This document shows positions 3-27,162 of a stretch of DNA of 64,000 nt, piece by piece (position 1 is the first letter of the stretch; each line of letters begins with the position of its first letter). Under the pieces are notes generated by a model. It made no database searches and had not been told where the DNA came from. It worked only from the letters and a program-made list of their open reading frames with translations. Source of the DNA: Desulfotomaculum nigrificans DSM 574 (GTDB taxonomy: Bacteria; Bacillota; Desulfotomaculia; Desulfotomaculales; Desulfotomaculaceae); contig NZ_KI912183.1 in assembly GCF_000189755.2 (NCBI RefSeq), positions 1,986,257 to 2,050,256 of the forward strand. Direction: 5' to 3'. A program made the position numbers and the translations under genes.

Positions 3-53
3 GCCCTGGGCCGTTGGAACGGAAATTATCTAACAGATGAGGATGAGGAATGA
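3..53 (+). CDS. 3' end of the gene upstream of jetC, probably jetB (partial)
   Basis: The frame beginning at base 3 is open for 16 codons and ends with TGA at 51-53, overlapping the jetC ATG as ATGA. This is the usual coupling inside Wadjet operons, where jetB (DUF2398/TIGR02678) directly precedes jetC. The 16 visible residues end in an acidic tail and cannot identify the protein by themselves. The assignment to JetB is inferred from operon order only; the other two frames close earlier, at 31-33 and 38-40. Confidence 0.4.
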   Translation, partial: ALGRWNGNYLTDEDEE

Positions 54-3000
54 TGCGCAACCGCTGGCAAATGAATCTGGCCGGTATTTTTAATTTCTGG
101 TATTACACCGATGAAGTTCAGTTTAAGTTAAGCGATGGCCGCCTGGTCCTGCGGGGGGCCAATGGTTCCGGCAAATCCGTAACCATGCAAAGTTTTTTGC
201 CGCTGGTGCTGGACGGCAATAAACGCCCTTCCCGTCTGGATCCCTTTGGTTCCAAGGATCGCAAGATCGACTATTACCTGCTGCTGGAGCCGGATAGCGG
301 TATTCAAGACCGGATTGGTTATCTTTATCTGGAATTTTATCACCCGGAACAACAGCGCTACCTTACTATTGGTATTGGGCTGCGGGCCCGCCGCAATGCC
401 AACACCGGTTTTTGGGGCTTTGCCATCACGGATAACCGTCGCATCGGCAAAGATATTCTGCTTTATGAAAGGGACTACAGCCAAGGACAAGAGCAAAAGA
501 TCCCTCTCACCCGTTCCCAGTTGGAGGATGTCATCGGCGAAGGCGGACAAGTGGTCACCGAGCAAGGTAAATATATGGAAATGGTCAACAAACTGCTCTT
601 TGGCTACGGCGATTTACAATCCTTCCAGGAGCTGCTGGACTTGCTGATTCAACTTCGCAGTCCAAAACTGTCCAAGGATTTCAAACCCACCACCATTTAT
701 GAAATATTAAGTAACGCCCTGCCTCCTCTGCAGGATGATGAACTGCGCCCGCTGTCGGAAGTCATGGAGGATATGGACCAGATTAACGACCGCCTGGAGG
801 AGGTCTGCCTGCACCGCCGGGAAGCAGAAAAACTCCAGCAGGTGTACAACCGCTACAATAAATACCTGCTCTACCACCAGTCCAGCCAACTGCTGCAGGC
901 CAAAAGGCAGTGGGACAACCAGCAGAGCAGCACCCAGGAACTGGAGGCTAAACTGCAAGAGATCTCCCGCTCTTTACAGGAACGAAACGAGCGACTAACA
1001 GAACAATCCACCAAACTCCTGGAGGTTAATGCCCGGCACCAAGTGCTTGCTGCCTCGGAGGTGCTGGAAAAACGGCATGAACTAAACCGGCTGCGGGAGG
1101 AAAAAGAGAGAACCAACCGGCAGGCCGAACGGCTGGCCAAAAGCCTGATGTACTGGCAAGGTAAACAAAAGGAATACCGGCGGGATCAAGAGAAGTACAC
1201 CGCCGAAGCGGCGGAATATACCACCAGGCAGCAGGCGACCCTGGCTGATTTAGAAGACATTGCCCGGGAATTTGATTTTTCCCGGCATGATGTGTACCAC
1301 CGCCAGTGGGATCGGGATATGCCCCGGGAATTCAATCAGTGGCACAACTGGCAGCAGGATTTGTCCGAACAGGAGCGGCAAATTAACCAAGCGCTGGAAA
1401 TAGCCCGTCGGGTGGATCACAAAAAGTATGAGCGGGATCTGGCGGAGCGGGAAGTGGGTAATGCCCGTCAGCGGCGGGATACCGCTGAAGAATCCTACCG
1501 CTTTGAAGAAGAAAACTGCGACCTGGTGCAAAAATCCTACCAAGAACAAATCTTTGCCTGGCGCAAAAATTTACTGGAACTTCATCTTAGCGATGAGGAA
1601 CTACAAAAAACTCTGCACCGCCTCTCCCTGTTCCCGGAAGTCTCCTACGAATCCATCAAGGAACCAATGCTGGAGGCCTTCGACCACCGTTATTTGGATT
1701 TGCAAAAACAAAAGGTGGCACTGGAGCAACAAAGAGACCGACACCAGGAAGAACAGAATCAACTCCGGGCAGCCTGGCAGGAATGGAAAAACCATAAGGA
1801 CCCGGAACCGCCCCGTTCCGCCGCCCGGGAGCTGTCCCGCCGCCAGCGCGGCGAAGGTGCCCCCCTCTATGCACTATGCGAGTTTCGCGAAGGGGTTAGC
1901 GAAGAACTTAAAGCCTCCCTGGAAGCGGCCCTGCAGCAAAGCGGGTTACTGGATGCCTGGGTCAGCCCCCAGGGACTGGGTATCCTGGGGACTAATGAAG
2001 AGGAAATCTGGATTGCTCCTAATCCACAATTCTTTGGTTACACCCTGGCTGATTACTTGTACCCCACTCCCCCGGAGGATGGCTCGCTGAAAGCTGAAAT
2101 CATTGACCAAATCCTCCGCACCATCAGCCTGGGAGACATCAGCAGCGGGGATAATGTGGGTGCCGCCGTTAACGAGCAGGGCTATTTTCGCCTGGGAGCC
2201 CTTTGCGGCAAGGCGGCGGCCAAGGAACGGGCCGAATTTATCGGTAAAGAAACCAGACACCGCACCCGGCTGGCCGAAATGGCCCGGCTGGAGGCGCTGA
2301 TGGAACAAGAACAGCAAAATATTGATGATTGTAACCGGCAAATCCACCGGATCGAGGAGGCACTGACCCGACTGACCCAGGAAAAATCCTGCTTCCCCGC
2401 CGGTGATGAACTGCAAGAAGCCTTCTCCAGATTGGCCCAGGCCAGGAGAGAAATGGAGTCTGCCCTGGAGGAAGAAAGACAAAAGGTGGAACTTTTCCGC
2501 CAGGCATCCCAGGCCTATCAGGAGACTGCAGCCGAACTGCACACCTTCATGCAGGGTTGGACCATTCCTAAAAATACCGCCGGCCTGACCGCTGCCCGGG
2601 ATCAACTGCAAACCTATCGCCAGCTGCTTGGTGAACTGCATTCCCACTGGTCCAGCTACCGCATGAGCCAGGCAGCTTTAGACCGGGCCCTGGCTGGATT
2701 GGCCGAAGCAGCAGAAAAGATTGCCGAGGAAACCGATGAACTGGCGTCCCTGCGAGAAACCTTACACCACATTAACGCCCAAATCTCAGCCTTTGAACAA
2801 GCCCTTAAAGATTTGGGCATTGAGGATATCGACCGGCAACTAAGAGAACTGGAGCAGCAACGGGATGCATTGCAAAGGGAAATTAATGCCCTGGATAAAG
2901 AAATTCGTCAGCTAGAAAAAGAGCAGGGCATCGAGGAAAGCAGGCTGTCCGCTGCCCGGGAACTATTAAAAGAAAAAGAAGCTGCCCTTAACCAAGCTCG

Positions 3001-4135
3001 AGAGGCCTGGCTCTGCGAATGGAACCGGCGGTTGGTGGCAGATTGGTCAGAAGTCACAGTTTCTGAAGCCAACCTGCCCGGTTTATACCGTGTGGCTCAG
3101 CAGGTGCTGCAACAATATCGGGATGAAAAGTACCTTCAGAAGAGCAAGGATAGCATTACCAACGACCTGTTTCTGGCCTTCCAGGAATGCCGCGGCAATC
3201 TGCACCCCTACGGACCTGAACTGATGCTGGACGAAGAGCACCAGCGGAACCTGGTGCTGTTTATGCGGGACCGGCATAATCCCCTGCCACCCCAGGCCCT
3301 GGTACAGGAACTGAAAACCACTGAGGAAGAGCAGCGATTGCTTTTAAGCCAAAAGGACCGGGAACTGTATGAGCAGATTATCATACACAGTGTGGGGAAA
3401 GCCATTCGCTATAAAATACTGCGGGCCGAACAATGGGTGCAGCAAATGAACCGGCTGATGGAACAGCGGGATACCTCCAGCGGCCTGCGCTTACACCTCA
3501 AGTGGGAACCCAGGCCGGCCGCCAATGAAAAGGAACTGGATACCCTCCAGCTGGTTAATTTATTAAAGAAAGACCCGCAAATGCTGCGAAATCAGGAAAT
3601 AGAACAAATGATTGAACACTTTCGCTCCCGCATCACCTGGGCCAAACAGGAGGCAGACCAGCATGATACCCTGCGCCAGTGGATTTACCGACTGCTGGAT
3701 TACCGGGAGTGGTTCCGGTTTACCCTCTATTATGAAAAGGGCGAGCAGCCTCGCAGGGAACTTACCGACAGCCGTTTCAATGCTTTAAGCGGCGGTGAAA
3801 AGGCCCTGTCTATGTACATCCCATTGTTTGCCGCCACCTATTCCCGCTACAACGACTGTCGACCGGAAGCCCCCAAAATTATTTCCCTGGACGAAGCCTT
3901 CGCCGGTGTTGATGATGAAAACATGCGGGATATGTTCGGGCTGTTAACCCAACTGGATTTTGATTACATGATGACCAGCCAGGTTCTGTGGGGTTGTTAT
4001 GATACAGTACCAAAGCTGTCGGTTTATGAAATCTACCGTCCCAAAGATGCCAGGTTTGTGACCTTGATTCAGTATTACTGGAACGGTTTCCGGCGTATGC
4101 TGGTGGATGAAAGTATGGTGGAGGAGAATGCTTGA
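50..4135 (+). CDS. jetC: Wadjet type II JetC, SMC/MukB-like ATPase (TIGR02680 family)
   Basis: A 1361-residue condensin-like ATPase, the motor of the Wadjet system that recognises and helps cleave small circular DNA. Seen: a Walker A motif GANGSGKS at residues 36-43; long Gln/Glu/Arg-rich coiled-coil stretches (about 250-560 and 730-1000) around a central hinge-like part; and a C-terminal ABC signature LSGGEK near 1246 followed by Walker B SLDEAF with D1281 and E1282. This head-coil-hinge-coil-head layout and the length fit JetC rather than Smc, Sbc or RecN. The next gene is JetD, starting inside the last codons. ATG at 50 overlaps the stop of the upstream frame; ATG at 53 is also possible. 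JetA and JetB should lie left of the window. Confidence 0.9.
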   Translation: MMRNRWQMNLAGIFNFWYYTDEVQFKLSDGRLVLRGANGSGKSVTMQSFLPLVLDGNKRPSRLDPFGSKDRKIDYYLLLEPDSGIQDRIGYLYLEFYHPEQQRYLTIGIGLRARRNANTGFWGFAITDNRRIGKDILLYERDYSQGQEQKIPLTRSQLEDVIGEGGQVVTEQGKYMEMVNKLLFGYGDLQSFQELLDLLIQLRSPKLSKDFKPTTIYEILSNALPPLQDDELRPLSEVMEDMDQINDRLEEVCLHRREAEKLQQVYNRYNKYLLYHQSSQLLQAKRQWDNQQSSTQELEAKLQEISRSLQERNERLTEQSTKLLEVNARHQVLAASEVLEKRHELNRLREEKERTNRQAERLAKSLMYWQGKQKEYRRDQEKYTAEAAEYTTRQQATLADLEDIAREFDFSRHDVYHRQWDRDMPREFNQWHNWQQDLSEQERQINQALEIARRVDHKKYERDLAEREVGNARQRRDTAEESYRFEEENCDLVQKSYQEQIFAWRKNLLELHLSDEELQKTLHRLSLFPEVSYESIKEPMLEAFDHRYLDLQKQKVALEQQRDRHQEEQNQLRAAWQEWKNHKDPEPPRSAARELSRRQRGEGAPLYALCEFREGVSEELKASLEAALQQSGLLDAWVSPQGLGILGTNEEEIWIAPNPQFFGYTLADYLYPTPPEDGSLKAEIIDQILRTISLGDISSGDNVGAAVNEQGYFRLGALCGKAAAKERAEFIGKETRHRTRLAEMARLEALMEQEQQNIDDCNRQIHRIEEALTRLTQEKSCFPAGDELQEAFSRLAQARREMESALEEERQKVELFRQASQAYQETAAELHTFMQGWTIPKNTAGLTAARDQLQTYRQLLGELHSHWSSYRMSQAALDRALAGLAEAAEKIAEETDELASLRETLHHINAQISAFEQALKDLGIEDIDRQLRELEQQRDALQREINALDKEIRQLEKEQGIEESRLSAARELLKEKEAALNQAREAWLCEWNRRLVADWSEVTVSEANLPGLYRVAQQVLQQYRDEKYLQKSKDSITNDLFLAFQECRGNLHPYGPELMLDEEHQRNLVLFMRDRHNPLPPQALVQELKTTEEEQRLLLSQKDRELYEQIIIHSVGKAIRYKILRAEQWVQQMNRLMEQRDTSSGLRLHLKWEPRPAANEKELDTLQLVNLLKKDPQMLRNQEIEQMIEHFRSRITWAKQEADQHDTLRQWIYRLLDYREWFRFTLYYEKGEQPRRELTDSRFNALSGGEKALSMYIPLFAATYSRYNDCRPEAPKIISLDEAFAGVDDENMRDMFGLLTQLDFDYMMTSQVLWGCYDTVPKLSVYEIYRPKDARFVTLIQYYWNGFRRMLVDESMVEENA

Positions 4136-5417
4136 CTATTTGCGCCAGCCTTGTTTTGAGAAGCTGTTTAGCCTGGCCAGGAAAAAGATCCAATCCTTAA
4201 ACGGTCTCCGGGGTGCGGTTACCCTGGACAACCTTTCCCCGGTGGACCAGGACCTGATCAGCGGTTTTCTGGGCAAGAACTGTTTGGGTCGGACCAGGCT
4301 AAAAATCCCTTTGCTTGAAATAGATGAGGTTCTGAAAAACAGCCCCCTGGAAATGGGACTATACCCTTTCCTGGAACTATATTTTAATGAAAGAATTCTG
4401 ACCAACCAGGAAATTTCCGCAACCCGGGAACACCGTTGGGCCCAGTTTTTTGCCCAACTGCAAGAACAAGCCCAAACCCCGGTGACCCAAGACTGGTTGG
4501 CCCAACTTTGGCAAGGGACCGGCAGCGGCTACCGCACCCTGCTGGCCCTATACCAGGATAACCCGCAGGCTGCCCTTGATGAGGCTTCCATCTGCGTAAA
4601 AGCACTGGATTACTTAGCCACCCATCCCGGTGAGAATTTACGCATTCCTGTTTTTGCCGCCAAATTAACCGGTGACCCCCATGCCCTGGATCTGGAAAAC
4701 TCGTTGGGGCGGTTACTTTATTACGGTCTGCTGCACTTCTTAGACAAACCGGAAACAGACTATACTGCCGAAGGAAAGCGCACCCTGTTCCGGGAGGCCG
4801 GGCTTTTGGACGATGATGTTTCATCCAATGTGCTGGTAGCCGGCCTGCGCGTATGCCAGGATGACCCCAGGTTCACCATTTTTGATGTGGCCAATGCCAC
4901 CGGCAGCCCTTTAATTTTACCCCTGCGCTTTCTGGCAATGCCCACCCGCTGGCAACCCGGACAAAAAGTTTATATGACGGAAAACCCGGCGGTATTCAGC
5001 ACCGTCCTGGATGTCTACCCCGCCACTTCCTTACCCCCAATCATCTGCGGCAGCGGCCAACCCAGTGTGGCGGCCCTCACCCTGTTAGACCAGCTTGTCC
5101 AAGCCGGATGCATTATTTACTACAGCGGGGACTTTGACCTCAAGGGACTGGAAATTGCCATCCGCCTGGCCCAGCGCTATAAACAAAACTTTCGGCCCTG
5201 GTGTTATGATAATGAAACCTACCTGGGGGTACCCCGCGGCAAACCAGCGGCTGCCAATCAAATAAATAACCTGAGAAAGCTTGATGTACCTTGGGACAAG
5301 CAATTGGTTCACCGCATGTTAGAGAGAAAGTTGTTCGTTTACCAGGAATCCTTTATAGATAAACTGATAAACCAATTCAACAACCGGCACCTAAAACTCG
5401 CCATCACCAAAGGGTGA
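4128..5417 (+). CDS. jetD: Wadjet type II JetD, TOPRIM-type nuclease subunit (TIGR02679/DUF2399)
   Basis: JetD is the nuclease of Wadjet; its C-terminal part resembles the Toprim domain of topoisomerase VI subunit A and cuts plasmid DNA extruded by JetABC. Seen here: an N-terminal helical region, then in the C-terminal third the sequence MTENPA with its conserved glutamate, followed by SGDFDLKG, where D335 and D337 form the Toprim acidic motif. ATG at 4128 overlaps the jetC stop and has GGAGG at 4120-4124, a spacer of only 3 bases; an in-frame ATG at 4107 would add seven residues. Both active-site elements are present, so the gene looks intact. It is the last gene of the operon. Confidence 0.88.
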   Translation: MLDYLRQPCFEKLFSLARKKIQSLNGLRGAVTLDNLSPVDQDLISGFLGKNCLGRTRLKIPLLEIDEVLKNSPLEMGLYPFLELYFNERILTNQEISATREHRWAQFFAQLQEQAQTPVTQDWLAQLWQGTGSGYRTLLALYQDNPQAALDEASICVKALDYLATHPGENLRIPVFAAKLTGDPHALDLENSLGRLLYYGLLHFLDKPETDYTAEGKRTLFREAGLLDDDVSSNVLVAGLRVCQDDPRFTIFDVANATGSPLILPLRFLAMPTRWQPGQKVYMTENPAVFSTVLDVYPATSLPPIICGSGQPSVAALTLLDQLVQAGCIIYYSGDFDLKGLEIAIRLAQRYKQNFRPWCYDNETYLGVPRGKPAAANQINNLRKLDVPWDKQLVHRMLERKLFVYQESFIDKLINQFNNRHLKLAITKG

Positions 5418-5631: not shown

Positions 5632-7182
5632 TTATACCAGCAGGCTGCCTGCTGCCTTCACCCGAATCTTGGTGGCGTTGCCCGGCAAATAGGCCAGGGG
5701 TACGTCTTCGATCTCTACGATCTCAATGCTGGCAGGATCAGCCCCGGCCTTCACCGCTTCCTCGACAGCCAGTTCCTTGGCCATTTTCAGCGCCCCTTCC
5801 CGGCCCAATTCATCGATGGAAAATATCCGTTCAATTTGGCCGCTGACCTGGGCAATGGCCGCACCGATGGCGTTAGCCACGTCGAAATGTTCCGGTCTGA
5901 TCACTTCCGAAGCCCCGGCTAATTCATCGGGTAAAATGATGCTTCCGCCACCCACCAGGATAACCGGCATGGGCTCAGCACTGGTCTTCATCCGATCAAT
6001 GACATCCTCGGCCATGTCGATGATTTGTTTGTAGGCGTGATCTAAAGTTTGCTGAGCAAGATGTTTTACCTTTTCCGGATCGCCAATGTTGGCCTTACCC
6101 AGTGCAGTTACCACATCCGAGGTGGTCAGGGTATCTCCGCCAAAGACCAGCGCCTCCCGGGTAATGCGATAACCCACGCTATCCGGTCCAATGGTAATAC
6201 CCTTATCACCGCTTCTCACAATGGTACCGCCACCCAGACCAATGGAGATGAGGTCAGGCATCCGGAAGTTGGTACGTACACCGCCAATTTCCACCGCCAC
6301 TGAGGATTCCCGGGGGAAGCCGTTGACCAGTACACCCACATCCGTGGTAGTACCCCCCACATCCACCACCAGGGCATTCCGTTGCTTGGCCAGGAAGGAA
6401 GCACCCCGAATACTGTTGGTGGGTCCACAGGCAATGGTTAAAATGGGATAGCGCATGGCATATTCCACCGCCATTAAGGTACCGTCATTCTGCCCAAAGT
6501 AGACCTTCGCCTTGATCCCTTCCCGCTCCAGGGCCGCAATAAAACTCTCGGCGGTGGTGCGGGCCACATCCACCAGGGACGCATTGAGTACCGTGGCATT
6601 TTCCCGTTCCAACAATCCAATACTGCCTATTTCATGGGAGAGGGATACCGGAATATCTCCCAGCTCTTCCCTGATAATTGCTGCGGCTCGTACCTCGTGG
6701 TCATTGGTTACCGGCGCAAAAACCGCCGTGATGGCCACCGAGTCTACCTTACCCTTGATCTCTCTGGCAATTTCCCGTAACCGCTGCTCATCCAGCGGCG
6801 CAATCTCCCGGCCATCAAATTCATGACCGCCACCAACTAAATATTGTCTGTTACCAATGGCCTCCTTAATGTCCTGGGGCCAGCCGGTGAGGGGTTTAAT
6901 GGCCCCGGTGGCGGGTAGACCAATGCGAATGACTGCTACCTGATTTAACCGTTTGCGTTCCACCACCGCATTGGTACAATGGGTGGTGCCCAGCATGGCA
7001 TATTTAATCTTACTGGTATCCACCGCGCCCTGCTGCAGCACCAGGGACATGGCCCGGTAAATACCGCCGGTAACATCTGCCGTGGTCGGTGTTTTGGCCT
7101 TGGCCACGGGCATTAGATTTTCATCCAGGATCACCGCATCGGTGTTGGTGCCTCCTACGTCAATACCAATTCTGTAACTCAT
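5632..7182 (-). CDS. hyuA: Hydantoinase/oxoprolinase family protein (HyuA-type, short form)
   Basis: A 516-residue member of the hydantoinase A/oxoprolinase family, which uses ATP to open five-membered cyclic imides or lactams such as hydantoins and 5-oxoproline. The ASKHA-fold phosphate motif GIDVGGTNTD is at residues 6-15, a second DVGGTTTD at 274-281, and an adenosine-type LVGGGS motif lies toward the C terminus. It is shorter than full HyuA or AcxA proteins (about 650-700 residues), as is usual for the class found beside DUF917 proteins. Its ATG shares one base with the TGA of the DUF917 gene upstream, so the two are translationally coupled. The substrate is not known; the permease in the cluster suggests an imported cyclic nitrogen compound. 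Confidence 0.85.
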   Translation of the reverse strand: MSYRIGIDVGGTNTDAVILDENLMPVAKAKTPTTADVTGGIYRAMSLVLQQGAVDTSKIKYAMLGTTHCTNAVVERKRLNQVAVIRIGLPATGAIKPLTGWPQDIKEAIGNRQYLVGGGHEFDGREIAPLDEQRLREIAREIKGKVDSVAITAVFAPVTNDHEVRAAAIIREELGDIPVSLSHEIGSIGLLERENATVLNASLVDVARTTAESFIAALEREGIKAKVYFGQNDGTLMAVEYAMRYPILTIACGPTNSIRGASFLAKQRNALVVDVGGTTTDVGVLVNGFPRESSVAVEIGGVRTNFRMPDLISIGLGGGTIVRSGDKGITIGPDSVGYRITREALVFGGDTLTTSDVVTALGKANIGDPEKVKHLAQQTLDHAYKQIIDMAEDVIDRMKTSAEPMPVILVGGGSIILPDELAGASEVIRPEHFDVANAIGAAIAQVSGQIERIFSIDELGREGALKMAKELAVEEAVKAGADPASIEIVEIEDVPLAYLPGNATKIRVKAAGSLLV

Positions 7183-8282
7183 CAGCGCTGCCCTCCCTTG
7201 CTGTTGCGGACCCGTTCTTCCACGGGAATATAATCCAAATCATAGCCAAAATAGCGCGGCCCCACGGTGGCAAGGCCCTTGTCGGTACGCCATTGGGGAT
7301 TACAGGGGATACCGATAACCACCGCCCTGGCGCCATAACGCAAGCCCTCGGTGGTAATGGGACGTCCTGTTTCCACATCCAGCACTGCGATGAGATCCGG
7401 AGCTGTGGCCAACACTTCGGTTTCCGTCCTGGCAATGAGATGTTCATTCTGGAAATTCAGGGTCATGGTCTCGCCCTTGTAGCCATCGATACCCTCAAGT
7501 TTACTTTCACCCCGGGCAAAGCCCCCGACAGTTTTCCGAGCCACATCGGTTACCTTACCCCGAAACAGTTCAAAACCTCCGGTAACTTGCAGTACCGTTT
7601 GTACCGGATCTAATCGCTGACTCTTAGACTCTCGAATGGCCCGGCCTATTTTTTCCGTCAGGGTAACAATGCCGTGGATACCGGACTGCTTGAGCTGGCC
7701 ACCGGTCATGGGATAAATGGCCAACATCACCGAACCGCCCATCACCACCGTAGCATTTCTGGCCAGCCGCTCGGTCCAAACATTATCCACGGTATTGAGC
7801 ATGATGTTGTTACCCTTTTCATCACAAAGCACCATCGGCGTGGCGGAAATACCATGTAGATGGAAGGTTACCATTTGCAATTCCGGAAAAGCCCGGCCCA
7901 TGCCATCGGTATCCACCACAGGTATTCCCAGCCTGGCAGCCAAAGCCAGGGGTATCATGGAGTTCACCCCGCCGGCCTCAATGGGGATGGTAGCATAAAC
8001 GGGCTGCTTAAGATAACTTTCCAGGGAATGAAAGGCACCAATCACCTCTTCTCCATTGGGTACCTTCTCCACCAATACCGTAGGAGCACCCATCATGGCC
8101 GTGGGCACAATTAAAGCGTCATCCGGCACCTCGTTGGGCTCCAATAGTTTAATGGGGCCAAATTCCTCTATGGCCTGAATGGCCATCAATTTTCCCACAT
8201 AGGGATCGCCACCGCCGCCGGTGCCAAGTACCGCCGCACCCAGGGCGATATCCTCAATGGCTTGTACATCTAAGGTACGCAT
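7182..8282 (-). CDS. DUF917 family protein (S-methyl thiohydantoin desulfurase-like)
   Basis: Family Pfam06032, whose name comes from an S-methyl thiohydantoin desulfurase. Conserved patches seen: the glycine run GTGGGG near the N terminus, EAGGVNS, and DTDGMGRAFPELQM followed by TFH, probably the metal and substrate site. The start is set at 8282 because GAGGAG lies 9 bases upstream of that ATG; an in-frame ATG at 8291 abuts the same Shine-Dalgarno and is unlikely. 366 residues. It is followed immediately by hyuA (one-base overlap) and preceded by the permease gene 183 bases upstream, so the three probably form a pathway for a hydantoin-like substrate. A paralogue is encoded at 11796-12905. 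Confidence 0.85.
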   Translation of the reverse strand: MRTLDVQAIEDIALGAAVLGTGGGGDPYVGKLMAIQAIEEFGPIKLLEPNEVPDDALIVPTAMMGAPTVLVEKVPNGEEVIGAFHSLESYLKQPVYATIPIEAGGVNSMIPLALAARLGIPVVDTDGMGRAFPELQMVTFHLHGISATPMVLCDEKGNNIMLNTVDNVWTERLARNATVVMGGSVMLAIYPMTGGQLKQSGIHGIVTLTEKIGRAIRESKSQRLDPVQTVLQVTGGFELFRGKVTDVARKTVGGFARGESKLEGIDGYKGETMTLNFQNEHLIARTETEVLATAPDLIAVLDVETGRPITTEGLRYGARAVVIGIPCNPQWRTDKGLATVGPRYFGYDLDYIPVEERVRNSKGGQR

Positions 8283-8419
8283 TTTTGTCATCTCCTCTTT
8301 TGCACTAAGAAATTATATTCTTACCATATTTATGGAAAGAGCTAAGGAATAAAGCATTGAAAGACCACGTTGAAGGAACTGATTTGTAAGTGTGCCTTTC
8401 TAACTAAAAAGTATCTTAG

Positions 8420-8474: not shown

Positions 8475-9800
8475 TTAAACCACTTGATTGGTCTTGGCAA
8501 ACTCCACACTACGCTGACTGGTGGCAGCACCGTAGAGCTTCATCCCCAGATAGTAACCCAGGCCGCCGACCACCAGTGAGTTGATGGCCGGAATACCGGT
8601 ATCGGTAACAAAATAGCCCACCAAAAAGCCCAGCAGCCAGGCTGCCATTGTAACAGGGTTCCAGATTTCGCACTCCTCGGGCAGTGTTCCCCTGGCCCTG
8701 GTTTCATCCAGAATGCTGCGGTTACGCTTTAAAATGTAATAGTCCACAAACATAATGCCTGCCACCGGCGGCACCGCCACACCCAGCAATACCAGGAAGT
8801 TCACAAAGTAATTTAAGATACCTAACATCGAAAGTACGGTACCCACGATCCCCAAGACCCAGGTGGCAGTCACACGGTTCACCCGCCACTGGAACAGGGC
8901 ATTCAGCATATTGGTAATACCCAGGGTAGAAGAGTAAAGGTTCAGGTCATTCATCTTAAGGGTAGAGAAAATCACAATGCCTGCACCGATCCAACCAGCC
9001 AGGGACAGCATGATGGTAACGATATCACCGGATCTTACCGCCAGGGACATCAGCACTGCCATCAAGTTCATACCCAATTCACCCGCGAAGGTGCCAATTA
9101 AAGTCATCCAGAATACATCTTTTTCAGAACGCATAAAGCGACTTATATCCGGGGTAATGACGGCACCTAAGATAAAACCTCCTGCTACCATCGTGGTACC
9201 TACCGCCAGGCTAAGGGGTTTCCCGGCGGGTTGGGCACCGATTAACTCACCAACACTATGGCCGGACATCACCTGGAACATGGCAATACCAACGGCAATT
9301 AAAAAGAGCGGTAAGGATATGTTCGCCGTTAGGCTAAGTAGCCGAAAACCAAAGGCTACAATAACCGTTACGACTAACCCCGTAATCAATGCCCATACTT
9401 GCAAATTAAACATGCCCGTGGCTTTCAAAAGCCCTTCGGCAAAAACGGAGTTTTGCACCCCAAACCACCCCATCAGGGCAATGGCGATCACGCCGCCAAT
9501 CATCGAGGAACCAATCTTACCAAAACCAGCCCAGCGGGAAAGTAAGCTGGTGGAAAGCCCCTCCCTGGCTGCTGCCGCACCCAAGGCGTAACTGACCACT
9601 TGCAGCAGCACACTGCCTAGCATGGTGGCCCAGAAAGCGCCCCAAAAGGTCATACCGTAGCCAAGAGCGGCTCCCAACATTAATTGAGATACACAGGCTA
9701 AGGAACCGATACGGATTACCAACACTTCCCACATGGGACGCCGGGCATCCATTGGAACCCTGGACAACGAATAGTCGTCGCCGGAATGAGCATTTGCCAT
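8475..9800 (-). CDS. NCS1 family purine/cytosine/allantoin-type permease
   Basis: A 441-residue polytopic membrane protein with about twelve hydrophobic segments, similar to CodB/cytosine permeases of the nucleobase-cation-symport-1 family. These import nucleobases, allantoin or hydantoins with H+ or Na+. Seen: an N-terminal hydrophilic stretch ending in RRPMWEV, glycine-rich TM1, and SLAVGTTMVAGG in the middle. ATG at 9800 has AGGAGG nine bases upstream; an upstream in-frame start at 9884 lies beyond the predicted sigma-54 promoter and is rejected. It is the first gene downstream of that promoter, which ties uptake to the divergently encoded activator. Co-location with DUF917 and hyuA suggests a hydantoin or related ring compound as substrate; this is inference. 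Confidence 0.82.
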   Translation of the reverse strand: MANAHSGDDYSLSRVPMDARRPMWEVLVIRIGSLACVSQLMLGAALGYGMTFWGAFWATMLGSVLLQVVSYALGAAAAREGLSTSLLSRWAGFGKIGSSMIGGVIAIALMGWFGVQNSVFAEGLLKATGMFNLQVWALITGLVVTVIVAFGFRLLSLTANISLPLFLIAVGIAMFQVMSGHSVGELIGAQPAGKPLSLAVGTTMVAGGFILGAVITPDISRFMRSEKDVFWMTLIGTFAGELGMNLMAVLMSLAVRSGDIVTIMLSLAGWIGAGIVIFSTLKMNDLNLYSSTLGITNMLNALFQWRVNRVTATWVLGIVGTVLSMLGILNYFVNFLVLLGVAVPPVAGIMFVDYYILKRNRSILDETRARGTLPEECEIWNPVTMAAWLLGFLVGYFVTDTGIPAINSLVVGGLGYYLGMKLYGAATSQRSVEFAKTNQVV

Positions 9801-9846: not shown

Positions 9847-9863
9847 TGCAAAATCCATGCCAA
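9847..9863 (-). promoter_or_regulatory. Sigma-54 (-24/-12) promoter of the permease operon
   Basis: On the minus strand the sequence reads TTGGCATGGATTTTGCA. The GG of the -24 box and the GC of the -12 box are exactly 12 bases apart, matching TTGGCAC-N5-TTGCA closely. Transcription would start near 9836, about 35 bases before the permease ATG at 9800. The divergent gene encodes a sigma-54 activator and rpoN lies at 25747, which makes the call coherent. Confidence 0.8.
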
Positions 9864-9910: not shown

Positions 9911-10024
9911 TTTCTCAACAATGGACATTTATTTTCTCAGTAAAGACAATATATTTTTCTTGCATTTCTCATGTTTTCTCTTTATTTTTCATCTTTTCTC
10001 TTGATTTATCATCTTTTGCATTGA
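9911..10024. repeat. Helically phased TTTCTC repeats, candidate activator binding sites
   Basis: TTTCTC occurs at 9911, 9933, 9965, 9975 and 9995, with intervals of 22, 32, 10 and 20 bases, all near multiples of one helical turn. The right part can be written as three 20-bp direct repeats at 9965, 9985 and 10005 of the form TTTnTCATsTTTTctcTTga. The array begins about 50 bases upstream of the sigma-54 promoter, the usual place for an enhancer bound by the activator. Its third unit overlaps the activator's own promoter, which would allow autoregulation. Confidence 0.6.
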
Positions 10025-10074: not shown

Positions 10075-11793
10075 ATGATCAACCGTACAACTATCGCCGG
10101 CACGGTCAACCATTTATTAAAGCTGTTGCCGGGCCACATCACGGTATGGCACCGGGGGGCCATTCTTTATGCCACGGAACCAAACCCCTCTAACAGCCTA
10201 AACCATTGGCCCATTGTTCAAGCAGCCCGGGAACAACATGAAGCGATACTGATTAGCGCTCCCCGGCAACACCAGCTGTGCCAGGAGTGCCCCCGGTGTA
10301 GTGATTGCTCCCTGGCCCTGGAATTGTTCATCCCCTTTCGCCTGAACCAGCAAATGAGCGGCGGTATTTGCTATCAATTTACCGCCACCGCTGCGAACTT
10401 ACTGCAAACGAATTTAAACGCCTGGTTGGAGCATTTAAAGGATTACACCAGGCACATTGAACTACTGATAGAGGATGCAACCAAGCGTCATCGCGAATTA
10501 TTAAAGACCCAACAGTTAACCTACCTGTTAAACCTGGTGCCAGAAGGAGTTGTGCTGCTGGATGAACACGCAAATATAACGGCCTACAATGAAATGGCTA
10601 ATCTACATGAGCTAACTAGTTTGCTGCAACCGTTAAAACACCATAACCCTGCCAGTGAATTACCAGCTACCCTCTCGCTGCCAAATTCCGCCGGGGAAAT
10701 GCAATTAAAGGGTAAATCCTTTTACTATAACAAACGGTTTATTGGCGCCCTGTACCACACCCAAAAATCAGCACCCTTGTTGAAGGAAAAAGCCAAACCC
10801 AGTAAACAAACCATCATGCCGAGCATTATTGGTAATAACCCGGCGATCCAAAAAATCCTGGATATAATCAAGCAAGTAGCCAGGTCCGATTCCACTATTT
10901 TATTGCGGGGAGAAAGCGGCACCGGTAAAGAGCTATTTGCCCAGGCCATTCATGAGCTTAGTCCCCGAGCCCATAAACCCTTTGTGGCCATTAACTGTGC
11001 CGCCATTCCCGAACATTTGCTGGAAAGTGAATTGTTTGGTTATGAGGAGGGCTCCTTTACCGGAGCAAAGAAGGGTGGCAAACCGGGAAAAATTGAACTG
11101 GCCAATCATGGCACGCTATTTTTGGACGAAGTGGGTGACATGCCGCTAGCCTTACAGGCTAAATTACTACGGGTCATTCAAGAAAAGAGCATTGAACGGG
11201 TGGGCGGCTCACATCCCATCCCCATTAATGTGCGTTTGGTGGCTGCCACCCACCGCAATCTGGAAGAAATGATTGGTCAAGGTACCTTCCGGGAGGATTT
11301 ATTCTTTCGTTTAAGTGTAATTCCCATCTTTATTCCTCCCTTGCGCCAAAGACCCGAGGATATCGAACTGCTGCTGAATTATTTCCTACGTAAATATTGT
11401 ATTTCTTTGCGCAAGCCCTTTAAGATTTTCTCCTATGGGTCCCTCCAACGGTTGATGTCCTATAGCTGGCCTGGCAATATTCGCGAACTGGAAAATATGG
11501 TGGAGTATCTGGTGAATATTCACGCCCAGGATGTAATCAATGCAGAGGATCTCCCCCTTAACATTAGCCGCAGCAGTCCGGCCGAAGAGGCCCCCCCAAC
11601 CATGAGAACAATGCCTCTGGCAGCTAAACCAGGTCATGGTTCCAGAAGTCAAAGGAGCCGGGATGAGTTAATCGAACTGTTAAATCGTTATGGTTGGGAC
11701 ACCGCAGGAAAAAGGGAAACCGCCGCCGCCCTGGGTATCAGCCTGGCCACCCTCTATCGGCGCCTTCATAAATACAAAATTAAGGAGTCGTGA
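10075..11793 (+). CDS. Sigma-54-dependent transcriptional activator (bEBP) with Cys4 sensor region
   Basis: A 572-residue enhancer-binding protein that would open sigma-54 promoter complexes by ATP hydrolysis. Layout: an N-terminal sensory region (1-140) with the cysteine cluster C69-X2-C72-X2-C75-X2-C78; a PAS-like segment (about 150-235); an AAA+ domain with Walker A GESGTGKE near 278-285, the sigma-54 contact loop as GSFTGA at 326-331 (Ser for the usual Ala) and Walker B LFLDEVGD; a Fis-type helix-turn-helix at the C terminus (about 535-570). ATG 10075 has GGAGG seven bases upstream. It lacks a receiver domain, so it probably senses a ligand or redox state directly. Divergent to the permease operon and first gene of an operon with the second DUF917/HyuA-like pair. 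Confidence 0.9.
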
Positions 11794-11795
11794 AT

Positions 11796-12905
11796 ATGCC
11801 AAAGTTGTTGGAACATCATGATATCGGTTCACTAACCCTGGGCAGTATCTTGCTGGGCTCCGGCGGTGGTGGTAATGCCTTTATTTTAAGTCCGGTGGTA
11901 GAAAATTACCTCCTGAAGCAAGGAGTGAAGGTAAAATTAATTCCCTACCACGAATTACCGGACGATACTTTTGTGGCTGCCATTGGCATGCTGGGATCAC
12001 CGGAACTCATGGAAGAAAATTTGCCCGACGGCACCGAGGGAGTGCGTGCCATTACTTTACTGGAGCAAGCACTGCATCGCAAAATTGATGTTCTCTACTC
12101 CCTGGAAGGAGCCGGTGTGAATATGCTTTACCCGTTGTTGGTGGCGGCCAAAACCGGACTTCCTTTAATCGATGGTGACGGCATGGGACGGGCTTTCCCG
12201 GAATTACAGATGACCACCTTCCATATCTACGGTCAACCCGGTACGCCCTTTGCCCTGACGAATTCCGAAGGAAAGCAGGATGTATTTTATAATCAAGATA
12301 ACTTCCTGCTGGACCTGGCCACCCGCAGGGCCCTGGTTCAATATGGGGGGGTTGGTTATTTTGCGGGCTTTGCCATGAGCGGTAGAAAGGTGAAGGATGG
12401 TCTTGTGCCCGGCACCCTGTCCTTTGCCCTGGAATTAGGAAAATCACTGCATGCGAATCATTACGAGGAAGCCCTGCTTTCCTTAATCCAATGTACCAAA
12501 AACTCCCTCTATGGCCGGGCCATTGAATTATTTATTGGCACCGTGGAGGAAGTCGGTGAAATCGCAGCCTTGAAATTAAAATCCATCTCCCTAAAGGGGT
12601 TAAAACAATACCGTGAGGATAGTTGTAATATTTTGATGCAAAACGAAAACGTCTTTGCCTACAGAAATAACAAAGTCGTGGCAATGGTGCCGGATATTAT
12701 TTCCTTCCTCTCTTATCCTGCGGGCCAACCCGTGAATAATAACGAAATATATAGCGGGATGCAGATTGCGGTGATTGGTATTCCCTGTCCGGCGCTGTTA
12801 CGGACGAGGCGGGCCCTGGCGGTGGTTGGCCCATCCTCCTTTGGATATAAGATGGAATATGAGCCATTGGAACAATTGCACCAGTCTTATTATTTTGGTG
12901 GTTAG
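11796..12905 (+). CDS. Second DUF917 family protein, co-transcribed with the sigma-54 activator
   Basis: 369 residues, a clear paralogue of the protein at 7182-8282. It keeps the glycine run GSGGGG, the EGAGVN patch, the DGDGMGRAFPELQM motif followed by TFH, and the C-terminal VIGIPCP segment. Sequence between these motifs is strongly diverged. ATG 11796 is chosen because AAGGAG lies eight bases upstream; a GTG at 11790 overlaps the activator stop but sits too close to that site. The DUF917 active-site motif is intact although its HyuA partner downstream is degenerate. It could be a second enzyme with other specificity or a ligand-binding accessory of the regulator. The function is unknown. 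Confidence 0.82.
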   Translation: MPKLLEHHDIGSLTLGSILLGSGGGGNAFILSPVVENYLLKQGVKVKLIPYHELPDDTFVAAIGMLGSPELMEENLPDGTEGVRAITLLEQALHRKIDVLYSLEGAGVNMLYPLLVAAKTGLPLIDGDGMGRAFPELQMTTFHIYGQPGTPFALTNSEGKQDVFYNQDNFLLDLATRRALVQYGGVGYFAGFAMSGRKVKDGLVPGTLSFALELGKSLHANHYEEALLSLIQCTKNSLYGRAIELFIGTVEEVGEIAALKLKSISLKGLKQYREDSCNILMQNENVFAYRNNKVVAMVPDIISFLSYPAGQPVNNNEIYSGMQIAVIGIPCPALLRTRRALAVVGPSSFGYKMEYEPLEQLHQSYYFGG

Positions 12906-12920
12906 GTGGGGGACTATGAG

Positions 12921-14240
12921 ATGGATTTTACCTTAAATCTAACGGTGGACCAAAATAAAATTTGGGGGTTGCTTGGTATTGAAGATATCGTAACAGCCAG
13001 AGCAAACCAGGCTATGGATTCTAGTTTGGCAGCCACCACAGAGCAAATCATTGGCCAACTTTTGTCCAAGTCAGCCATTCAGCCCGAACAAATCACTCAG
13101 ATATTCATCACGGCAGATTTTCTGGATTTATTCAATGGCGGCTATTTACCCTGCCCAGTCATCGGCTATGTACGCTATCTACCAAGAATTACCAACAATC
13201 AGGAGCCCCTTTATAAATCGCCCCTACGGCACCAGGTGGTTACGGAGACAGTAGACAGTGAGGATGGGTTGAGTCAGGCTTTATTCAATTTGAAAGCTAA
13301 CCACCCGGCGGCCCTGGCTGTTAATCCTTCCTTTTTCTCCTGGGGTGATCTCACAGAAGGTGCCCTTTCAGCACTAACCCGGAGGATTCTAGGCTATCCA
13401 CTGCCAGTGATGCTGGGTAGCGTCTTTAATAAGATTGGCTTTATAGCTCGGGAAAATATCTTACTGGTTAACACCCTTTTACTGCCGGGGGTTCAGTCCT
13501 TCTATGATCAGCTTCATACTGTGTTAGCCCGGCAAAACATACAAGCCAAAATTTGGACCCTCCGAAACAACGGCATGCTAATGACGGAGACCAGGGCACG
13601 ACAATTTCCCATTTATACCACCAACTCCCATCTGGCAGCCCATTTGCTAGCAGCCGGAAGACCTTTGGCACTGGACAATATGCTGGTGATCTCCGCCCGG
13701 GATAATAACCTCTTATTTGGTATTCTGGAGCAAGGTTTACCCCTGTGTTCCCAAGTACCGTTGGAATATAAAGGGATTGCCCTCAACCTTACGCATCCCT
13801 TTATAAAGACCATCCCGCTGGACCGATATCAATCCATCGGTGATTTAAAAAGGGTGGTTAAAGAAACCTTGCATACCTTACATCACGCCGGGGAATCCAG
13901 GCCAGTAGTCATTAACCTGGCTGACCCAGCAATTAATAGCCTTTTATTGCATACCTGTCAAAGTCTTAACTTGCCTGTGCAAGAGGCAAAGTTCAGCAGT
14001 TCCTTTGGGGCACGCTATGCACCGATCTGTGTGGAACAAGAACACTATTTACCGGCCTATACCAGTAAAAAAAGGGCCGAGATACAGGACTTACTCTGGG
14101 GTAAATTAAAAGAAGAATTACGGGCAGAGGGTTTGTCTATCAAGGAAGATTGGCAGAGTTACTGGGAGGAACGTCCCATCCGCTACTTACCCGAACAAGC
14201 CTCCCTCATTCGGTTAGGTTATTACGGACCGAAATCATAA
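12921..14240 (+). CDS. Degenerate HyuA-like protein lacking the nucleotide-binding motifs
   Basis: 439 residues, and at first sight unlike any enzyme. Read against the HyuA at 5632-7182 it aligns along most of its length: FNKIGFIAREN corresponds to EIGSIGLLEREN, NIQAKIW to GIKAKVY, NNGMLM to NDGTLM, and RYLPEQASLIRL to AYLPGNATKIRV near the C terminus. The catalytic features are gone: the N-terminal DVGGTNTD is replaced by TVDQNKIW, the second DVGGTTTD by SARDNNLL (258-265), and the glycine-rich part after it is shortened. The reading frame is clean, so it is a maintained gene rather than a pseudogene. ATG 12921 follows GGTGGGGG by eight bases. A binding, sensory or structural role with the adjacent DUF917 protein is inferred. 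Confidence 0.7.
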   Translation: MDFTLNLTVDQNKIWGLLGIEDIVTARANQAMDSSLAATTEQIIGQLLSKSAIQPEQITQIFITADFLDLFNGGYLPCPVIGYVRYLPRITNNQEPLYKSPLRHQVVTETVDSEDGLSQALFNLKANHPAALAVNPSFFSWGDLTEGALSALTRRILGYPLPVMLGSVFNKIGFIARENILLVNTLLLPGVQSFYDQLHTVLARQNIQAKIWTLRNNGMLMTETRARQFPIYTTNSHLAAHLLAAGRPLALDNMLVISARDNNLLFGILEQGLPLCSQVPLEYKGIALNLTHPFIKTIPLDRYQSIGDLKRVVKETLHTLHHAGESRPVVINLADPAINSLLLHTCQSLNLPVQEAKFSSSFGARYAPICVEQEHYLPAYTSKKRAEIQDLLWGKLKEELRAEGLSIKEDWQSYWEERPIRYLPEQASLIRLGYYGPKS

Positions 14241-14296
14241 TACACTAACAAAAAACCTGCTTCACTGTGAATGACCTGCTCCCCAAAAACTGCTCC

Positions 14297-14368
14297 AATA
14301 GAATTGCTGTTTACAGAGGCTATCCCAAAGAAACTCTCTCCGACAACGGCCCTGAGTTTGCGGACTGA
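14297..14368 (+). pseudogene. Fragment of an IS transposase integrase core
   Basis: Without a start codon, the frame at 14297-14368 encodes RGYPKETLSDNGPEFAD and a stop. SDNGPEF is the signature around the second acidic residue of rve/DDE transposase cores (IS3/IS481-like). Nothing else of the transposase is recognisable in the upstream bases 14241-14296. It is a remnant in the gap between the HyuA-like gene and ssrA. Confidence 0.6.
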
Positions 14369-14653
14369 ACAATAAAACACCAATTAATACGCTGCGTATC
14401 TGACCACCAAAAACTGTGGACAAGTTTCGTAACTAACATTCCCAATGGTACAAAACATGGGGGCAGCTCTACTAAAGAAGACATGTTGAATTACCTGGAA
14501 TCGCTGTATCAACAGTTTAAACAAAAAGAAAACGACGAGCAATTAAAGCCCATCGTTCAGCAGTTTGTCAATAAAGTTACTGTTTTCGACAAAGAAGTCG
14601 AAATCGATATGAAAATAGTTTTGGTTACAAGTGGTGGAGGCGGGGGGAGTTGA
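14369..14653 (+). pseudogene. C-terminal remnant of a site-specific recombinase, ending inside ssrA
   Basis: The frame stays open from 14369 to a TGA at 14651-14653 and encodes about 94 residues. The last part, with a Gln/Lys/Glu-rich helix, then VTVFDKEVEIDMKI, resembles the C-terminal end of large serine recombinases. The final codons VTSGGGGGS and the stop are read from the ssrA 3' end. Recombinase genes whose last codons run into the attachment site are typical of elements integrated in tmRNA genes. The N-terminal catalytic part is missing, so it is inactive. The family call is from pattern only. Confidence 0.5.
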
Positions 14654-14981
14654 ACCCACCGTCCGAAGGAACGACCACAACAGGCTCTACGAGCGTAGGT
14701 TATGTTTTAGATTTCGCACCGCCGCCGCCCATAACCAGGCTGCTTTGGCACTATCTCGGCAGTCTTAGCTATAGCCCTCCGAGAATCAGGCTATAGAGCG
14801 TCCCGCTGGTGTGGCCCCCTAATCCCGCACCGCGGGCGCAGCGGGTAGGAGGTTAGCTGAATTAAGCAGCTAAAGCGTATTCTTCGTTGGCAATTATTGT
14901 TTGTTCACCGTTTAACGGGCTGGTGAGATCCCGGCTCGCTCCTCTTGCCACCGCTTCCCCCGTCGAAGCCATTTCGCCCCC
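14632..14981 (-). ncRNA. ssrA: Transfer-messenger RNA (tmRNA)
   Basis: 350 nt. The 5' end GGGGGCG pairs with the 3' CGCCTCC before ACCA to form the tRNA-like acceptor stem; GGTTCAACTCC gives the T arm and the 5' part has the typical GGCTTCGACGGGG. The tag reading frame at 14862-14891 encodes ANEEYALAA and ends in TAA, which marks stalled proteins for proteolysis. smpB, the protein partner, lies 35 bases upstream on the same strand. The plus-strand recombinase remnant ends inside the 3' part of the gene, which is encoded complete with its CCA. Confidence 0.95.
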
Positions 14982-25746: not shown

Positions 25747-27162
25747 CTAATATCTTTTCCTCCTGTTAGTAGCCGGTATACCTAATTCATCCCGGTATTT
25801 GGTTATCGTCCGGCGGGAGATGGTGATTCCCCTCTGGCTAAACAATTCGGCGATTTTCTGGTCACTTAAGGGAGCGGACGGGTCTTCCTGCTGAATAATT
25901 TCTTGCAAAATCTTTTTTAAACTTTCGGCGGAAACCTGCGTGCCGCTGGCGCCGCTGAGCCCGGTGGAGAAGAAATACTTCATTTCAAAGACACCCTGGG
26001 GTGTCTGTATGTATTTATTGGAGGTGGCTCGGCTGACCGTGGACTCATGCACTCCGATCAGGTCCGCTACCTTTCTGAGGTTCAGGGGCTTTAGATATTT
26101 AACCCCGTGATCTAAGAAGTCGCGCTGCAGCTCCACCAGGCAGTTAGCAACTTTATATAAAGTAAGCCGACGTTGCTCGATACTGCGAATGAGCCAGGCC
26201 GCCGAGTTTAGTTTTTCCTCCACAAAGCGCTTCGTATCCGGGTCAGCGGAACTATTTTTAGCCAATACCTGGCGGTAAGTATTGTTAATAGACAGGCGGG
26301 GTATGGCCACATCATTGACTAAGATGACGTACTGGTCAGCCACTTTTTCCACCACCACATCCGGTATAATGTACCGGGTATCGTTGGCATTACTGAAATT
26401 GCGGCCAGGCTTGGGCTCCAATTTTTTTAAAATATCAGCAGCCTCTTGAATCTCCTGGGGGGAAACATTTAGTTTAGCGGCAATTTTGGATAACTTACCT
26501 GCGGCCAGGTCAGATAAATGATCCGCAATCAGTATTCTTACCAGGGGGTTGTCTTCCCCCAGCAGATCCAGTTGAATATTGAGACACTCCTGCAGATCCC
26601 GGGCGCCCACCCCCGGCGGATCGAAGCTTTGCAATACTTTTAAAGCCTCCTCCAATTTAGGGAGACCCACCTTTAACTGCTGGTTGGCTTCGGCCAGGCT
26701 GATGGCCAGGTAACCCCTGGCATCAACGTTACCAATTAAATATTCAACCACCGGCCTTAAATCCCCGGCTGTCTTGCTTAAGCCCAGCTGAAACATCAGG
26801 TGATCGGTTAAAGTGGGCGCCTGACTGACAAACTGCTCATAATTGGGCTGCTCCGCAATTTCCCTTTGCCCCCGACCGGGACTTACCCCCAAATCACTCC
26901 GGTCTTCAAAATATTCCAGCCAATCGGGGTCAAAATCCTTTTTATCTGCCTCAATCCCCATATCTCCCTGGCCGCCGGTTTCTTCCCCCCGCTCCAGGTC
27001 ATTATCCCGCATTTCCAGCAGAGGATTTTCCAATACCTGGGCCTCTACATATTCAGTCAGCTCCATAGAAGACATCTGCAATACAGTGATGGCCTGGCGT
27101 AGTTCCGGGGTCATTATTAACTTTTGGGTCTGTTCTAAATTTAGACCAAAGTCCATGCGCAA
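25747..27162 (-). CDS. rpoN: RNA polymerase sigma-54 factor
   Basis: 471 residues. Seen: the N-terminal Gln/Leu-rich activator-interacting region I (LEQTQKLIMTPELRQAI), an acidic region II with EETGGQGD, the core-binding domain, the HTH segment GVHESTVSRATSNKY, and the RpoN box SRRTITKYRDELGIP that reads the -24 element. The TTG at 27162 has GGGGGAG nine bases upstream; ATG at 27156 is the alternative. This factor would serve the promoter at 9847-9863. Confidence 0.96.
   Translation of the reverse strand: MRMDFGLNLEQTQKLIMTPELRQAITVLQMSSMELTEYVEAQVLENPLLEMRDNDLERGEETGGQGDMGIEADKKDFDPDWLEYFEDRSDLGVSPGRGQREIAEQPNYEQFVSQAPTLTDHLMFQLGLSKTAGDLRPVVEYLIGNVDARGYLAISLAEANQQLKVGLPKLEEALKVLQSFDPPGVGARDLQECLNIQLDLLGEDNPLVRILIADHLSDLAAGKLSKIAAKLNVSPQEIQEAADILKKLEPKPGRNFSNANDTRYIIPDVVVEKVADQYVILVNDVAIPRLSINNTYRQVLAKNSSADPDTKRFVEEKLNSAAWLIRSIEQRRLTLYKVANCLVELQRDFLDHGVKYLKPLNLRKVADLIGVHESTVSRATSNKYIQTPQGVFEMKYFFSTGLSGASGTQVSAESLKKILQEIIQQEDPSAPLSDQKIAELFSQRGITISRRTITKYRDELGIPATNRRKRY

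Follow-up and report, generated by a model that had tools for sequence, protein, structure and literature searches.

Enhancer-binding proteins may be controlled by a separate partner protein, as is the case for NifL-NifA, PspA-PspF, and FleN-FleQ, and to our knowledge partners of the NifL, PspA, and FleN type did not arise from the enzymes of the pathway under their control. Enzyme subunits reportedly act on the regulator of their own operon in the case of DhaK and DhaL, which control DhaR. An inactive enzyme paralogue controls the regulator in the DhaQ-DhaS system of Lactococcus, and in ROK repressors such as Mlc the ASKHA kinase fold has been turned into a ligand-sensing regulator with its own DNA-binding domain. 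Here, a locus was analyzed in a 64,000-nucleotide stretch of Desulfotomaculum nigrificans DSM 574 (the window), in which a sigma-54 activator is encoded together with a DUF917 protein (DUF917b) and a 439-residue homologue of the ATP-dependent HyuA-type hydrolases that is devoid of ATP motifs (dHyuA). In the bacteria examined, the gene for the switch is thus linked to those for a defective version of the very enzymes whose genes it probably controls, which suggests that a worn-out enzyme has been retained as a component, and perhaps the sensor, of the switch.

The activator, DUF917b, and dHyuA genes form, in that order, an operon (the triad) on the + strand within 4.2 kb, with DUF917b starting 2 bp after the activator stop codon and a Shine-Dalgarno-like sequence, ggtggggga, preceding the dHyuA ATG at 12921. 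Divergent from it lies an operon encoding a permease, a second DUF917 protein (DUF917a), and the intact HyuA of which DUF917a is the partner. The coordinates and reading frames proposed for the triad genes in an initial annotation were found to be correct (Table 1). As for NifL-NifA, PspA-PspF, and FleN-FleQ, a separate protein would set the activity of the activator. DhaK and DhaL are kinase subunits, whereas an ASKHA/DUF917 pair is involved here, both subunits of which would be dedicated, eroded copies. Solved structures of Mlc match the model of dHyuA at Z ~12, although ROK repressors, unlike dHyuA, carry a DNA-binding domain. DhaK/DhaL-DhaR and the ROK repressors may be viewed as precedents for the principle of a co-regulator role. 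A description of such a regulatory module was not found in the literature searched, which included the accessible parts of PMC12316311, PMC6615313, PMC3162934, PMC7513527, PMC12915319, and PMC11055893 and mostly did not extend to subscription papers.

The HyuA-type hydrolases (hydantoinase/oxoprolinase, including CapA and N-methylhydantoinase) share with dHyuA a full-length fold (Z 21-25) and a collinear sequence, whereas the phosphate 1 (P1), phosphate 2 (P2), and adenosine motifs are absent in dHyuA. Profiles of 18 dHyuA and 18 HyuA sequences aligned end to end over 433 collinear columns (hhalign probability 99.7, E 3.8e-27, from a single comparison), with one large gap of 54 HyuA residues corresponding to the adenosine region. 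This profile-profile alignment bore out the initial claim of HyuA homology with both ATP motifs replaced, P1 having changed from DVGGTNTD to TVDQNKIW and P2 from DVGGTTTD to SARDNNLL in the window dHyuA. The gamma-phosphate motif DxGGTxTD (P1) and the beta-phosphate motif DxGGT (P2) were each missing in 18/18 full-length dHyuA proteins, and HyuA residues 314-321 of the adenosine-binding loop had no aligned dHyuA residues in the profile alignment, which was used for all 18. DVGGTNTD and DVGGTT were invariant in seven HyuA orthologues, and no substitute catalytic motif was seen in dHyuA. In CapA, replacement of the P1 or P2 aspartate by alanine left 0.05% (19 h) and 0.4% (17 h) conversion, respectively, according to PMC8453981. 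The window dHyuA falls below every Pfam cut-off (best score 11.2 vs 22.9 bits), as do five of five further dHyuA proteins scanned against the gathering cut-offs, so that the claim of homology rests on alignment. The AlphaFold2 (AF2) model of dHyuA (7 sequences) had a mean predicted local distance difference test (pLDDT) score of 85.6 and a predicted template modelling score of 0.87. Its best matches among solved structures, over 423-427 residues, were acetophenone carboxylase (Z 25.2), N-methylhydantoinase (Z 22.9), and caprolactamase CapA (Z 21.4), followed by acetone carboxylase (Z 18.6-15.7), whereas other ASKHA proteins reached Z ≤13.9 over about half the length (the first over 213 residues). 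An ASKHA/HyuA fold, which the initial annotation had made a precondition of its interpretation, was thus confidently predicted over the full length, and dHyuA is modelled as retaining the whole HyuA/CapA fold without the ATP motifs.

DUF917b belongs to the DUF917/S-Me-THD-like proteins (PF06032, PF20906), for which PMC11055893 states that no experimental characterization had been made; no papers on ‘thiohydantoin desulfurase’ were found in the literature searched. It scores far above the Pfam cut-off of 27 bits (S-Me-THD_N, 166; S-Me-THD_C, 166.9) but has lost family-conserved residues. A comparison with 73 other DUF917 proteins gave 73 columns with ≥90% conservation; 43 of these are kept, and 16 are lost, by ≥90% of the DUF917b members, whereas losses in the five control clades amounted to 0-2 of 70-82 conserved positions. 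In the numbering of the window DUF917a, R252 is present in 73/73 other DUF917 proteins and 0/19 DUF917b, T313, T314, and E315 are replaced by N in 18, 18, and 17 of the 19, respectively, and K246 is kept in one. Most of the D-D-x-MGRAFPE-QM block is retained, and the score against the NCBIfam model for S-methyl thiohydantoin desulfurase (NF058532) is 59 bits vs an equivalog cut-off of 450. The initial statement that the partner keeps DGDGMGRAFPELQM holds for the window protein, but the loss of other near-invariant residues had been missed. The DUF917 tree and the conservation count used 92 of 155 collected rows, among them 60 of the 74 other sequences remaining after thinning of 123.

The triad was identified in 19 genomes, with one copy degraded, and every locus was read gene by gene. 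It occurred in 7/113 genomes of the class and in 11/398 genomes of a Bacillota phylum sample, where the criterion was a DUF917b match over 500 bits (three genomes being in both sets); four further loci came from a genome collection with at least 582 DUF917 matches, of which the top 80 were covered. All 11 matches over 500 bits in the phylum sample, one of them in the degraded locus, were flanked by the activator and a dHyuA sequence, as was every DUF917b match over 400 bits; weak matches at other loci (68-147 bits) were not accepted as DUF917b. The initial annotation had asked whether homologues keep the phosphate motifs or occur without the activator: none of the 18 full-length dHyuA keeps them, and no DUF917b match above 400 bits lacked an adjacent activator and dHyuA. 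In 16/19 genomes, the contig of the triad also carries the whole divergent permease-DUF917a-HyuA operon; in G023 this operon lies on another contig, and at locus L025 the contig ends after the permease. The remaining genome, G221 (locus L136, 3473-9284), has a truncated activator directly after the HyuA gene. This locus contains neither the permease nor DUF917a nor the N-terminus of the activator; its dHyuA is broken and its DUF917b intact. This degraded triad could be an assembly fault. Within the genus of the window, both operons are present in 2/9 genomes, and the other seven gave no match (E ≤ 0.001) to a dHyuA query that does detect the intact HyuA in the two. At class level, the dHyuA query missed the dHyuA of G069, a genome picked up through its intact HyuA, where the gene was then located by position, so that dHyuA-based searches under-count. 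A 273-residue open reading frame (ORF) follows HyuA at L018:12978-13799 (G006); its start resembles, by eye, a nitrilase-type amidohydrolase, possibly the next catabolic step.

The ratio of nonsynonymous to synonymous substitution rates (dN/dS) was 0.17-0.29 for dHyuA and 0.02-0.11 for intact HyuA in 7/8 pairs each, the eighth being saturated in both cases and several dS values exceeding 1. Full-length dHyuA is under purifying selection. Mean pairwise identity was 27% for dHyuA, 54% for DUF917b, and 71-72% for HyuA and DUF917a. The motif count does not include the broken L136. The identity and distance analyses leave out both L136 and L022/L023, a single genome split over two contigs, and the distance correlation also leaves out L025, whose contig is without HyuA or DUF917a. 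When HyuA and DUF917a distances were regressed out across 16 genomes, the partial correlation of dHyuA was 0.83 with the activator N-terminus and -0.15 with the permease. Mean distances were 2.63 for dHyuA, 2.80 for the activator N-terminus, and 0.56 for its C-terminal part. The divergence of dHyuA tracks that of the activator and not the permease, which is suggestive only, since the three triad genes form one operon.

In all 18 readable triad junctions, the best -24/-12 match faces the permease (matrix score 14.3-19.3), with 0-2 of 200 shuffles as good per junction; this conserved sigma-54 promoter supports the earlier proposal that the permease operon is the target of the activator. The weight matrix was built from a sigma-54 consensus, and PMC6615313 gives a matching one, TTGGCATNNNNNTTGCT. 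In the window, 46 bp separate the promoter from the probable start codon of the permease, an ATG at 9800. The start in the ORF list, 9884, is upstream of the promoter, and the position of the promoter suggests 9800 as the true start, which yields 441 residues, the length of several orthologues. In 10/10 examined permease-DUF917a-HyuA loci with no activator in the stretch, a comparable promoter was not found within 500 bases upstream and the first 120 bases of the permease ORF (best scores 3.4-12.5), whereas L157, the sole comparison locus with an adjacent activator, has a site scoring 19.3; a strict pattern and then the matrix gave the same outcome. Upstream of the 18 triad promoters, 43 TGA[GT]AA sites were counted on the permease-facing strand and 15 on the other, against a shuffle expectation of 6.1 (maximum 13 in 300), and the sites are often spaced in 10-bp steps. 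According to PMC6615313 (Nie et al.), the Clostridiales sigma-54 regulons share the promoter consensus, the presence of upstream sites, mostly 100-250 bp away, and an activator that mostly adjoins its target. They differ in that 15 of 39 activator groups have TGT-ACA inverted repeats, vs the TGAGAA repeats found here. Table 1 of that paper names no hydantoinase or DUF917 target for these 39 groups, although XhpR and XptB, whose targets are partly unnamed, might be exceptions. The presence of RpoN was uninformative as a discriminating test, as it was found in 34/34 genomes searched, comparators included; in the window, rpoN (a match to the sigma-54 DNA-binding domain) lies on the - strand at 25753-26229, ~11.5 kb beyond dHyuA.

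The window activator carries a Sigma54_activat (AAA+) domain (245.5 bits vs a Pfam cut-off of 20.2) with the loop GSFTGA, which reads G[SA]FTGA in aligned orthologues. The HTH_8 score of 21.1 bits lies under the cut-off of 22, and three C-terminal helices are predicted by AF2. The AF2 model (mean pLDDT 73.9) comprises an alpha/beta domain (residues ~1-110), a long helix, a second alpha/beta domain (~155-230) that looks PAS-like, the AAA+ domain, and a probable C-terminal helix-turn-helix. The protein scores 373 bits against the PrdR model NF041552 (equivalog cut-off 795), and the triad activators form one clade (support 88/81). A C-x2-C-x2-C-x2-C run is present in the N-terminal domain at residues 69-78 (10279-10308), and a three-cysteine pattern recurs in 8/9 other aligned triad activators, the exception being L029; it may be a metal or redox site.

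Duplication of the window's own enzyme pair, as proposed initially, is not borne out, and a recent local duplication was ruled out: DUF917b forms one old clade (support 100) separate from the DUF917a of the same genomes, which fall elsewhere in the tree. The initial interpretation is partly supported, as regards the fold, the motif loss, the linkage, and the target promoter but not the local origin. In one tree, DUF917b is nearest to the DUF917 proteins of two operons that combine an activator with an intact pair (L143, L146). In G222, G261, and G196, whose activators fall near the triad clade, the activator gene is directly followed by genes for DUF917 and intact HyuA, and in 3/3 a sigma-54 promoter lies between the first two genes. 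At L143, L146, and L147, the related activator, sigma-54 promoter, DUF917, and intact HyuA are followed by genes of ~390-410 and 250 residues; perhaps this arrangement is the ancestral layout. A second layout, first met at an Aneurinibacillus locus, is present in 5/15 genomes of its order and consists of activator, sigma-54 promoter, DUF917c, a degenerate HyuA, permease, DUF917a, and intact HyuA. In 5/5 of these degenerate HyuA proteins, P1 reads DVGR or DVGK without GGT, P2 is without GGT, and the adenosine loop is cut; dN/dS was 0.14-0.19 in three pairs. With the Aneurinibacillus rows added, DUF917b joins DUF917c instead, in one group with support 98/95 (10 of 19 DUF917b rows). Both stems are long, so that attraction is possible and there may have been one or two origins. 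Tree supports are the values printed by the tree tool, and re-rooted readings may shift by one branch.

A linked, selected pair that has lost its ATP motifs, encoded beside the activator of an intact pair, is most simply explained as a substrate-sensing co-regulator, and the dead pair is most likely a two-subunit co-sensor of the activator, with ligand binding and contact inferred. DUF917b and dHyuA would assemble like the catalytic DUF917-HyuA pair and bind the pathway substrate or a related small molecule. They would be unable to hydrolyze it, as dHyuA would no longer bind ATP and the conserved site of DUF917b is partly lost. The state of the pair may be passed on by direct contact with the fast-evolving N-terminal region of the activator, which would assemble on the TGAGAA repeats and open the sigma-54 promoter of the permease-DUF917a-HyuA(-racemase) operon; the pair may either activate or restrain the activator. 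That the activator, DUF917b, and dHyuA act in this way as one regulatory unit controlling the permease operon is judged somewhat more probable than all other explanations together. The degraded locus of G221 was counted in favor of this unit, as the permease, DUF917a, and activator N-terminus are missing where dHyuA is broken. Several observations weigh against it. A weak promoter-like site (12.5) occurs at L159, which has no activator, and TGA[GT]AA is absent from the permease-facing strand in 3/18 junctions and occurs twice or more in only 9/18. Divergence of dHyuA also correlates with the AAA+ part of the activator (0.77) and with DUF917b (0.66), so that common inheritance of the operon explains much of the pattern, and the dHyuA and activator N-terminus distances are near saturation. 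In G156, a comparable operon is preceded by an activator of the same group and no dead pair is present, that genome giving no second DUF917 match above 55 bits. The alpha/beta N-terminal domains predicted for the activator could also sense alone. Finally, the dead pair of the second layout lies behind the sigma-54 promoter together with the catabolic genes, which would also suit a part of an enzyme complex.

The latter role is the main rival: the dead pair would be a non-catalytic part of a larger DUF917a-HyuA enzyme complex, much as two different ASKHA subunits occur in acetophenone carboxylase, and would share the activator operon only for convenience. It gains from the Aneurinibacillus layout, where the pair comes first behind the promoter on the catabolic strand, and from carboxylase relatives that have ASKHA-type alpha and alpha' subunits, as described in PMC8453981. 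It loses from the triad layout, in which the pair follows the activator on the opposite strand, away from the sigma-54 promoter, as well as from the divergence of dHyuA, which follows the activator rather than the permease, and from the 55/66 sampled Bacillota genomes that have a DUF917 match and no DUF917b over 500 bits; overall, it is considered unlikely. DUF917 desulfurases are thought to work alone, and DUF917b might do so if the pair had become an enzyme that acts on a related substrate in a new way, without need for ATP. The 43 family-conserved positions and most of the D-D-x-MGRAFPE-QM block would suit such an enzyme, whereas the loss of 16 others, R252 in 19/19 and the T-T-E residues each to N in 17-18/19 among them, the lack of a visible substitute motif in dHyuA, and the constant linkage to the activator make it rather improbable. 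The two AF2 alpha/beta domains ahead of the AAA+ domain, together with the G156 activator that manages without a dead pair, would fit a ligand-free scaffold, localizer, or stabilizer, with sensing left to the activator; yet two enzyme-fold subunits seem much for a scaffold, and the family from which the pair derives is that of the controlled pathway's own enzymes, so that little weight is given to this explanation. Least credible is a decaying pseudogene: dHyuA is the fastest-evolving of the six genes by identity and 1/19 copies is broken, but it is open in 18/19 genomes, its dN/dS values in seven pairs indicate constraint, and its fold is confidently predicted.

Around the two operons, JetC (50-4135, 1577 bits) and JetD (4107-5417, 420 bits) are Wadjet-type genes matching subtype 2 models, and the remaining Wadjet parts, if any, would precede the window start. 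The + strand stretch from dHyuA to the transfer-messenger RNA gene at 14632-14981 (14241-14631) resembles a transposase remnant (RGYPKETLSDNGPEFAD, by eye at ~14318), and a search of plasmid DNA with the stretch after dHyuA gave no match.

Table 1. Features of the triad and the divergent operon (window coordinates).
Feature	Position	Strand	Basis
Sigma-54 activator (enhancer-binding protein), 572 aa	10075..11793	+	Pfam, 6-orthologue alignment, AF2, activator clade
DUF917b, eroded DUF917/S-Me-THD-like partner, 369 aa	11796..12905	+	Pfam; clade support 100; 16/73 positions lost
dHyuA, 439 aa, without P1, P2, and adenosine loop	12921..14240	+	Profile alignment, AF2 fold
-24/-12 sigma-54 promoter TGGCATGGATTTTGCA, facing permease operon	9847..9862	-	Matrix search, 0/200 shuffles as good
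Four TGA[GT]AA sites (starts 9912, 9934, 9966, 10006), candidate upstream activating sequence	9912..10011	-	
NCS1-type (cytosine/allantoin) permease, likely target	8475..9800	-	Transp_cyt_pur; orthologue lengths
DUF917a, partner of intact HyuA	7182..8291	-	Pfam, locus reading
Intact HyuA with DVGGTNTD and DVGGTTTD	5632..7182	-	Hydant_A_N 149.7, Hydantoinase_A 116.8 bits, over cut-off

The broader proposal, that duplication of a whole two-subunit ATP-dependent enzyme and loss of its catalytic function have produced a substrate sensor dedicated to the sigma-54 activator of the enzyme's own pathway, in several Bacillota lineages, in two layouts, and with a half-eroded intermediate in Aneurinibacillus relatives, is given about an even chance. 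As the dead subunit falls below Pfam cut-offs, annotation is likely to miss such modules. If correct, the proposal would show a multi-subunit metabolic enzyme becoming a signalling device while its active sister is still in the same locus, with comparable stages represented by an intact pair beside a related activator, a half-eroded pair, and a fully eroded pair. The findings also add a group of sigma-54 activators, together with a defined promoter and a candidate DNA site, for an operon on whose regulation nothing was found in the literature searched. For the little-characterized DUF917-HyuA enzymes, the proposal predicts that the inducer of the activator is their substrate or a relative of it.

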